Origin: Nitriliruptoraceae bacterium
GTDB taxonomy: Bacteria; Actinomycetota; Nitriliruptoria; Nitriliruptorales; Nitriliruptoraceae
Reading direction: 5' to 3'
Length of the DNA stretch: 64,000 bases
NCBI GenBank assembly: GCA_007121785.1
Contig: SKJX01000047.1
Location: 1 to 64,000, forward strand
Shown: one piece after another, positions 8,627 to 56,339 of the stretch
Layout of the letters: the number at the start of each line of letters is the position of its first letter
How positions within the stretch are numbered: position 1 is the stretch's first letter
The notes under the pieces: generated by a model
Seen by the model: only the letters and a program-made list of their open reading frames with translations
Told to the model about the DNA's origin: nothing
The model's database searches: none
Position numbers and translations under genes: made by a program

Positions 8627-8754
8627 CGTTTCCTCCAAGACGGTTCGGTGGCGTACGGTGGCAGCGTGTGGCCGGGTTCGGACGTTCCCCATCGCCCGGG
8701 GGTCACCGGGGACCTTGTAGGTTTCAGCCGTTCTCTCGAGTGTCTGTGGTGGTC

Positions 8755-8760
8755 TACGTT
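8755..8760 (+). promoter_or_regulatory. Possible -10 box for prcB at the island edge
   Basis: TACGTT ends 3 nt before the right-hand pup repeat. If used, prcB would be transcribed from island sequence with a leader of roughly 137 nt. No good -35 is visible, so support is weak. Confidence 0.25.
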
Positions 8761-8763
8761 CTC

Positions 8764-8798
8764 CGTCCGCGGCTACGTCCAGAAGGGCGGCCAGCAGG
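8764..8798 (+). repeat. Direct repeat, right copy (attR-like)
   Basis: Matches 5214-5248 with one mismatch. It would encode RGYVQKGGQ but reads CAG where pup has the TAG stop, so no Pup could end here. No start codon or upstream Pup sequence accompanies it: only the 3' tip is present. It lies 105 nt upstream of prcB, about where pup should end in the ancestral pup-prcB arrangement. Confidence 0.8.
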
Positions 8799-8903
8799 GC
8801 CGCAGCTCGGTTCCCGTGCCCGCGGCGATCCGGCCCGTCGCGATCGGCCGATCGGGGCTGCCCGGCCGGAGGGCGGCAGCCTGCCCCACCAAGGAGGGGT
8901 CGT

Positions 8904-9725
8904 GTGACCATCAGTGACGACCGAGGGTGGACCGGCTTGTCCACGCCGTTCGATCCGCAGGGCTCGTCGTTCTTCGAGACCCTCCGGCGGATGGCCCCGG
9001 ACGCGGTGCCACCGGTGATGGCCACCGGCTCGATCCCGCCGGAGCTCCAGGCGCAACTGGTCGAGGGCACCACGGTGCTCGCGGTCGTCGCCCACGGGGG
9101 CGTGGTGATGGCGGGGGATCGGCGCGCGACCGCTGGCAACCAGATCTCGCGCGGGGACATGCGGAAGGTCTTCCCTGCGGACGACTCGTCGGCGATCGCG
9201 GTCTCCGGTGCGGCGGGCCCGGCCATGGAGCTCGCCAAGGTGTTCGCGACCGAACTCGAGCACTACGAGAAGGTCGAGGGCGAGCCACTCTCGTTGGAGG
9301 GTCGGTCGACCAAACTCGCTGGGATGGTCCGCGCCCACCTGCCCATGGCGATGCAGGGCCTGGTGGTGGTCCCGCTGTTCGCCGGTGTCGACCGACGTAC
9401 CGGCGAAGGGCGGATCTTCGAGTACGACCCTGCTGGTGGCCGCTACGTCGCCACGGAGCAGGCGGCGACGGGCAGCGGTTCGCTCGCGGCTCGCGCGACG
9501 CTCAAACGGCTGGCCGACCCCGATGGCGACGTGGAGACGGCCGTCGGCACCGCGGTCGAAGCCCTCTACGACGCCGCGGAGGAGGACAGCGCGACCGGCG
9601 GCCCCGACCTGATCCGTCGCATCTACCCGATCGTCGCGGTGATCGATGGCGGCGGTTACCGCGAACTGGACAGTGACGAGGTGGCGACGCACGTCGACAC
9701 CGTGGTCGCATCCCGGCAACGATGA
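8904..9725 (+). CDS. prcB: Proteasome subunit beta
   Basis: Catalytic subunit of the 20S core. The 273-residue precursor has a 55-residue propeptide and the processing site EG|TTVLAVV, making Thr56 the N-terminal nucleophile after self-cleavage. The beta fold follows (GGVVMAGDRRATAGNQI with the Asp and Arg near the active site, a Lys in RKVFP, SGAAGPAMELAK). Length is typical. GTG start with AAGGAGG 6 nt upstream. prcA follows after 77 nt. Its normal upstream partner pup is displaced by the putative island, so it must have its own or a read-through promoter. Confidence 0.97.
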   Translation: MTISDDRGWTGLSTPFDPQGSSFFETLRRMAPDAVPPVMATGSIPPELQAQLVEGTTVLAVVAHGGVVMAGDRRATAGNQISRGDMRKVFPADDSSAIAVSGAAGPAMELAKVFATELEHYEKVEGEPLSLEGRSTKLAGMVRAHLPMAMQGLVVVPLFAGVDRRTGEGRIFEYDPAGGRYVATEQAATGSGSLAARATLKRLADPDGDVETAVGTAVEALYDAAEEDSATGGPDLIRRIYPIVAVIDGGGYRELDSDEVATHVDTVVASRQR

Positions 9726-9802
9726 CCGGCATCGCCTCGGGCGGTCCCGATCGCTGGTAGCCGTGAGATGACGGCCGCCACGTAGCACCCACAGGAGCCA
9801 GC

Positions 9803-10519
9803 ATGTCGGCGAACTTCTACGTCGCCCCCGAACAACTGATGAAGGACCGGGCCGAGTACGCCCGCAAGGGCATCGCCCGGGGTCGTGCGCTCGTCGCGGT
9901 CGAGTACGCCCAGGGGGTCATCTTCGCCAGCGAGAACCCGTCGGGCTCGTTGCACAAGACCTCCGAGATCTACGACCGCATCGGCTTCGCCGCGGTGGGG
10001 CGCTACAACGAGTTCGAGTCGCTGCGTGTCGCCGGGATCCGCCTGGCGGACGTCAAGGGTTACCAGTACGCCCGGGAGGATGTCAGCGCCAAACCGTTGG
10101 CCAACGCCTACTCGCAGGCGCTCGGCGCGAGCTTCATGGGTGACTCCAAGCCCTTCGAGGTCGAGCTGCTCATCGCGCAGGTCGGCGGTGACGGGCACCG
10201 TCCGGAGGGGGAGGAGGGTCCGCAGGGACCCGGTCTCGAGCTCTACCACATCCTCTACGACGGCTCGATCGTCGACGAGCAGCGGTTCGTGGCCATCGGC
10301 GGCGATACCGACCCGCTCACCCGGTCCCTGGAGCAGCGTTGGGAGCGCGGCCTTCCCCGCGACCGTGCGGTGGCCGTGGGCGTCGCGGCGCTCTCGGAGG
10401 CCGCCGGCCGGGAGTTGACCCCCGACGTGCTGGAGGTCTCGGGTCTGGACGCCACCCGCGCCCGCCGACGGTTCTTCCGGCTGCGCGGCGACGACCTGGC
10501 GGCCGCCATCGACGCCTGA
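9803..10519 (+). CDS. prcA: Proteasome subunit alpha
   Basis: Forms the outer heptameric rings of the 20S proteasome and gates substrate entry. The 238-residue protein begins MSANFYVAPEQLMKDRAEYARKGIARGR, the gating tail and H0 helix of actinobacterial alpha subunits, then continues with VAVEYAQGVIFASENPS and KTSEIYDRIGFAAVGRYNEFESLR. No processed N-terminal Thr, as expected. ATG preceded by AGGAG. The C-terminal 20 residues (RRRFFRLRGDDLAAAIDA) match the family end. Confidence 0.96.
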   Translation: MSANFYVAPEQLMKDRAEYARKGIARGRALVAVEYAQGVIFASENPSGSLHKTSEIYDRIGFAAVGRYNEFESLRVAGIRLADVKGYQYAREDVSAKPLANAYSQALGASFMGDSKPFEVELLIAQVGGDGHRPEGEEGPQGPGLELYHILYDGSIVDEQRFVAIGGDTDPLTRSLEQRWERGLPRDRAVAVGVAALSEAAGRELTPDVLEVSGLDATRARRRFFRLRGDDLAAAIDA

Positions 10520-55907: not shown

Positions 55908-56279
55908 TCAGAGGTCGCTGGGCCGAACCGTGCCACGGTTGTTGTCCTTGGCACGCTGCGTCGCGCGGTCGATCAACTCCTGGACCTCGGCGTTGAGCGC
56001 CTCGGGGAAATCGCTCGACATGCGGACGTCCTGGTTCTTGACGGCGTCCTTGACCTTGGACGCGACGACGACGTTGCCCGCCGAACTGGCCGAGGCGGTC
56101 GTCTTGCGCGTGCTCTTCTTGGCCGTCTTCTTGGACGTCTTCTTGCCCGACGCCTTCTTCGCCGCCTTCTTCGCGGTCTTCTTCGCAGCGGTCTTCTTGG
56201 CCGGCGCTTTCTTGGCCGGAGCCTTCTTCGCCGCCGCCTTCTTCGCGGTCTTCTTCGCGGTCTTCTTCGCGGCTGCCAT
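55908..56279 (-). CDS. Bacterial histone-fold protein with lysine-rich tail
   Basis: 123 residues. Residues 1-62 are a tail of KKTAKKA/PAKK-type repeats with 25 lysines, like histone H1 tails. Residues 69-123 read as a histone fold: helix 1 ASKVKDAVKNQ, loop DVRMSSD, long helix 2 FPEALNAEVQELIDRATQRA, then KDNNRGTVRPSDL, whose R-x-T-V-x-P-x-D-L matches the loop-2/helix-3 start of archaeal and bacterial histones. Helix 3 is almost absent, as in known bacterial histones. AGGAG lies 5 nt before ATG, and a minus-strand TAGAGT (56345-56340) is a likely -10 box. Expected to bind DNA without sequence preference. Confidence 0.8.
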   Translation of the reverse strand: MAAAKKTAKKTAKKAAAKKAPAKKAPAKKTAAKKTAKKAAKKASGKKTSKKTAKKSTRKTTASASSAGNVVVASKVKDAVKNQDVRMSSDFPEALNAEVQELIDRATQRAKDNNRGTVRPSDL

Positions 56280-56339
56280 GGTTTCTCCTGCGTCCGCAGA
56301 TCTGATGTGCCTCCGCCGAGCGGCGGCCGGTCGAGGCGA

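Follow-up and report, generated by a model that had tools for sequence, protein, structure and literature searches.

The window analyzed here, a 64,000-nucleotide stretch of a Nitriliruptoraceae contig, contains a short minus-strand open reading frame (55908-56279) whose product appeared to join a histone fold to a tail of lysines. This raises the questions of whether an actinobacterium does encode such a protein and what role it might play in the cell. The coordinates given in the first-pass annotation were correct. Translation of the frame yields a protein of 123 amino acids followed by a stop codon (MAAAKKTAKKTAKK...STRKTTASASSAGNVVVASKVKDAVKNQDVRMSSDFPEALNAEVQELIDRATQRAKDNNRGTVRPSDL), beginning at an ATG at position 56279, with a Shine-Dalgarno-like AGGAG (56285..56289, minus strand) located 5 nt ahead of it.

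Coding evidence and fold of the tailed histone

Over its last 55 codons, the frame was compared by codon position with four orthologues, each taken from another genome of the source organism's family. Differences at codon positions 1/2/3 numbered 0/1/8 for orthologue L045, 5/5/24 for L046, and 8/4/17 and 8/8/23 for two further orthologues, and the GC fraction of the frame at the three positions was 0.51/0.50/0.93. As third-position differences dominate and third-position GC reaches 0.93, the frame is under selection at the protein level. The protein is kept across the family. This GC-rich stretch also holds antisense frames longer than the histone frame, with one of 246 aa on the plus strand, which could suggest that one of them is the real gene and that the lysine-rich frame is spurious. 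With a Shine-Dalgarno site, a third-position substitution bias, conservation across genera and solved homologues all on the side of the histone, that reading has practically no chance of being correct; conservation of the histone had already refuted it, and the longer antisense frames are by-products of DNA with 71% GC.

The histone fold occupies residues 69-123 (55911..56075, minus strand), as delimited by phmmer, AlphaFold2, Foldseek and VIA-align. A phmmer search of the PDB with the C-terminal 62 residues matched HLp of Leptospira (9qt0, E=6e-8), HTkC of Thermococcus (9f2c, E=3.7e-6) and HBb of Bdellovibrio (E=0.2). AlphaFold2 modeled the full protein with two helices (residues 67-82 and residues 91-112) and a short third one (residues 120-122), and modeled the domain alone (pLDDT 79) as a helix-loop-helix followed by a short third helix (H2-19, H28-49 and a three-residue helix at 57-59 in domain numbering), which is an alpha3 histone fold with a truncated third helix. 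The best nine Foldseek matches, headed by 9QT0, 9QT1 and 9F2C, were HLp, HTkC and HBb, all of them alpha3 histones of bacterial or archaeal origin (TM 0.73-0.79 by query length, rmsd 1.1-1.6 A). VIA-align likewise ranked HLp first, with a Z of 7.0 over 56 residues compared to 6.4-6.5 for HBb; as a Z of about 7 is by itself modest for a 60-residue domain, it is the sequence match that makes the histone assignment secure. The phmmer match to 9qt0, the AlphaFold2 model and the Foldseek matches bear out the original proposal that the C-terminal 55 residues form a histone fold. The same proposal described helix 3 as nearly missing; a short helix is present, and alpha3 histones normally have a truncated one, so this is no oddity.

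Membership in other families was also considered. The suggested relationship to DUF1931 was dropped, as PF09123 scored 15.0 bits against the full-length protein and 17.3 bits against the domain alone, below the Pfam gathering score of 21.8. Models of the H1-like HC1/HC2 families gave compositional matches far below their cut-offs (10.4 of 40 bits for PF07382, 21.6 of 80 bits for NF038053), and membership there was likewise set aside. A search of the entire source genome for the HU/IHF family (PF00216) returned zero matches. Together, the results support the view that the 123-residue product, encoded by an actinobacterium of the Nitriliruptoraceae, combines a histone fold with a lysine tail resembling that of H1.

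Face-to-face signature and lysine tail

The end of the domain carries the signature of the face-to-face (FtF) class, R109-x3-N113-x-R115-x-T117-x4-D122 (55911..55955, minus strand), which spans the tetramer residues, the RD clamp and the L2 loop. The residues of the dimer-dimer contact (R48 and N52 in the profile, R49 and N53 in HLp) correspond to R109 and N113 and were found in 50/50 relatives, as was the broader pattern R-x3-N-x-R-x-T-x4-D-[LF] in all 50 recovered histone domains. The RxTxxxxD loop motif and the RD clamp are present as R115-G-T117-V-R-P-S-D122. In HLp, the tetramer residues are R49, N53 and R55 and the clamp is formed by R55 and D62 (PMC12701072); the roles of the FtF residues are described there and in the main text of PMC11390915. 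Because the FtF arginine and asparagine are absent from HBb-type dimers and present here, the protein is, judged by its sequence, of the FtF type (HLp/HTkC) and predicted to form a tetramer. The initial description of a histone of bacterial type was right as far as it went, and R109 and N113 refine it to the FtF class and away from that of Bdellovibrio HBb. An HBb-like histone, acting on DNA as a dimer by bending or coating it, would share the same alpha3 fold, and HBb is indeed among the top fold matches, close behind HLp in Z. By sequence, however, HBb is a far weaker match than HLp, and bacterial dimers lack the dimer-dimer contact residues that are invariant here, making a dimeric mode of action very unlikely.

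Three solved histones provide the closest comparisons. HLp of Leptospira perolatii (PDB 9QT0-9QT2) shares the alpha3 fold, the truncated helix 3, the tetramer residues, the RD clamp and a host without HU, but it has a short N-terminus without a long lysine tail and is the single histone of its genome, located beside smc; the window protein adds a 66-residue tail and a tailless paralogue and belongs to another phylum. HTkC of Thermococcus kodakarensis (PDB 9F2C) shares the fold and the FtF class but comes from an archaeon, has no tail and occurs alongside nucleosomal histones. HBb (Bd0055) of Bdellovibrio bacteriovorus, also a bacterial alpha3 histone with a short helix 2, differs in its dimeric class, in a host that keeps HU and in an identity of only 29%.

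In the window protein, the tail forms the N-terminal part and the fold the C-terminal part. The tail covers residues 1-66 (56082..56279, minus strand) and contains 25 Lys, 1 Arg, 21 Ala, 9 Thr and zero Asp/Glu; at first, 25 lysines had been counted in a tail taken to be 62 residues long. Residues 5-56 had pLDDT values under 50 in the full-length AlphaFold2 model, as expected of a disordered segment. The tail carries a net charge of +26. The histone domain (pI 6.4) has a net charge of 0, and so does the tailless paralogue described below. With a domain charge of zero, the fold is unlikely to bind DNA strongly on its own. The DNA encoding the tail contains imperfect 12- and 15-bp tandem repeats, a probable route by which the tail changes length. 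Orthologous tails range from 48 to 93 residues, the upper value (L026) depending on the choice between two candidate starts, and most contain 16-26 Lys.

As all of the net positive charge sits in the tail, and weak compositional matches to H1-like families exist, the protein could be primarily a basic tail protein of the H1/HC1 type whose C-terminal domain is merely a dimerization module. We regard this as rather improbable: the tail varies in both sequence and length while the domain, with its L2-loop DNA-contact motif, is conserved, and the H1-like models fall far below their cut-offs. Actinobacterial HU proteins (HupS/HupB) have repetitive tails rich in Ala and Lys. These tails and those of the H1-like HC1/HC2 resemble the present one in composition, yet they are attached to an HU fold or are free-standing. 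A simple transfer of the tail from HU was rejected, since the HU of the sister families is a plain protein of ~90 aa without a lysine tail.

Bacterial FtF histones bearing positively charged tails are known already. According to the main text of Schwab et al. 2024 (PMC11390915), charged N-terminal tails are common in these histones, mostly positive and not conserved, as here. Thus the architecture, first proposed as distinct, stands as a variant and is not unprecedented. That main text places such histones mainly in Spirochaetota, Planctomycetota, Bdellovibrionota and Myxococcota, without mention of Actinomycetota, and a literature search covering main texts found no publication on histones in Nitriliruptoria or Actinomycetota. 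In the literature main texts, the actinobacterial lineage, the pairing of a core with a tailed histone and the exchange for HU therefore appear to be unreported so far.

Histone paralogues, their loci and HU in Nitriliruptoria

Histones were detected in 32/66 Nitriliruptoria genomes, comprising 32 of the 36 in families f1 and f2, which make up the order of the source organism, and 0/30 in the sister families f3-f5. Single-sequence and profile searches of a 296-genome sample of the phylum returned f1/f2 members and otherwise only hits at chance level, which lay within large open frames at E 0.003 or worse. The order contains two histone paralogues. The tailless form, of 58 aa, occurs in 29 genomes and the tailed form in 14/36, including the single f2 genome; the source genome holds both (C80 and C15). 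As it is present in only 14 of the 36 genomes, the tailed form is dispensable. The closest named record, from a Nitriliruptoraceae MAG, has a 97% identical domain. In a tree built from only 58 columns, which leaves the deep forks unresolved and from which no donor lineage of the histones was found, the f1 tailed forms other than the divergent L065 cluster together (14 rows, support 95/90).

The tailed histone resides between a co-directional downstream gene of the PAC2 family (PF09754; 54905..55804, minus strand) and a divergent gene for a SAM-dependent methyltransferase-like protein (PF04445; 56448..57746, plus strand), and these conserved neighbors flank it at 9/9 loci examined, f2 included. 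In three genomes of the source family (G051, G318, G332), the same flanks lie ~70-180 bp apart with no histone between them, so the gene was gained early and then lost or moved several times. The tailless histone gene sits between lhr and nei. In the source genome it is found on contig 15 (G000, L092:8464-8640), where a cytochrome P450-like ORF (8738-9991) separates it from nei. In two sister-family genomes (G086, G279) lhr and nei directly adjoin without a histone, and in G247 and G307 they are convergent neighbors, again with no histone there. The tailless histone was therefore inserted on the branch leading to Nitriliruptoraceae. A histone seated in the former position of HU was considered and rejected, as the HU loci of sister families have no neighbors in common with the two histone loci, except for one broad ABC-transporter-type cluster.

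About 93% of bacterial genomes encode HU and under 2% encode histones, according to the main text of PMC10627809. Within the class, PF00216 was matched in 27/30 genomes of f3-f5 versus 1/36 of f1/f2. The sole f1/f2 match (L140) lies on a 3.6-kb contig of G330 (contig 218) with 45% GC, compared to ~71% for the window, and its foreign-looking neighbors include M23-type peptidase-like and heavy-metal P-type ATPase-like genes. This contig is probably foreign DNA contaminating the MAG; setting it aside leaves HU in 0/36 genomes of the order. The single-contig genomes G051 and G226 also contain histones and lack HU. As for other nucleoid proteins, Lsr2 was found in 0/66 genomes of the class, and the actinobacterial mIHF is retained in the order.

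The class-level contrast between histones and HU probably reflects one evolutionary event, so its Fisher p of 2e-15 does not count as independent evidence. Moreover, loss of HU needs no histone, because ~88/284 sampled Actinomycetota outside the order (about 30%) have neither a PF00216 hit nor a histone. Leptospira with FtF histones also lack HU, providing a parallel case in another phylum (PMC12701072). The tailless paralogue, together with the order-wide loss of HU, is more notable than the single tailed gene.

Proposed role of the histone pair and variant forms

The analysis shows the fold match, the class signature, a pair of paralogues, how these are distributed among genomes, and that HU is absent. 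From these we infer a mechanism involving tetramer formation, DNA binding and wrapping, a role for the tail, co-assembly and a functional takeover from HU. Two subunits would form a histone handshake dimer, and two dimers would join face to face through R109, N113 and R115 into a torus-shaped tetramer, by analogy to HLp. DNA would be bound or wrapped, as proposed from HLp, via helix-1 lysines and the L2 loop. Because the fold has zero net charge, electrostatic hold would be supplied by the tails, with +26 per chain and ~+104 per tetramer, which may grip flanking or neighboring DNA in the manner of a linker-histone H1 tail. The tailless paralogue would then act as the housekeeping core histone. 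The tailed one would be an accessory that compacts DNA, perhaps in mixed assemblies with the tailless form, and both probably took over the role of HU while mIHF was kept. A haloalkaliphilic, soda-lake habitat is suggested for the lineage by the biology of Nitriliruptor and by related MAGs having come from sediment, and a neutral core would suit it. We consider it likely that the protein is such a nucleoid histone, an FtF tetramer binding or wrapping DNA with the tail adding hold, in a pair that probably replaces HU.

The genomic position of the tailless paralogue, between a repair helicase gene (lhr) and a DNA glycosylase gene (nei), would also fit a DNA-repair or regulatory specialist with a histone fold, rather than a global chromatin protein, whose tail confers non-specific DNA affinity. 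The patchy occurrence of the tailed form and the neutrality of both domains are consistent with this. HU is absent from the same genomes, however, and the nearest bacterial relative, the FtF histone of Leptospira, is highly expressed and essential (PMC12701072 and the main text of PMC11390915), which makes a specialist role unlikely. Returning to the nucleoid histone, its fullest form is that the order exchanged HU for a two-part system, with a tailless FtF core at lhr/nei and, at another fixed locus, a core-like histone that bears an H1-like lysine tail, so that linker-type and core-type functions would both be carried by FtF histones; we give this even chances of being correct.

With no HU, the usual bacterial DNA-packaging protein, detected in the order, histones may package the chromosome of this lineage in its place. 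An order with near-universal histones and no detectable genuine HU gene, beside HU-bearing sister families free of histones, offers a natural before/after comparison. Through it, one could test if HU can be replaced by histone chromatin in a bacterium, and by what means. The contribution of a charged tail is testable as well, as a single cell holds both the tailed and the tailless form and the tailed gene is missing from its locus, intact in other respects, in close relatives.

Variant histones were also recovered. G324, a genome of the same genus as the source, contains three tailed copies (L054, L056, L026) in addition to a tailless one, and the tail of the second, L056, is rich in Arg and almost free of Lys; from these copies and this tail, the histone is diversifying. 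L065 (G317 contig 38) is a divergent tailed histone on a long branch with a KAPAKKAAKK-type tail, possibly acquired independently. The only f2 genome (G289) encodes a 125-aa tandem doublet of two FtF-type folds (L014/L063; contig 15, 7465-7824, minus strand) along with a tailed histone at the PAC2 locus, and lacks the 58-aa tailless form. Finally, nearly identical FtF histones were found in a MAG labeled Chloroflexi (L051) and a Diapherotrites genome (L052), whose source bins share a naming style (AB_1215, AB_3033), and this near-identity reflects either recent transfer or mis-binning.
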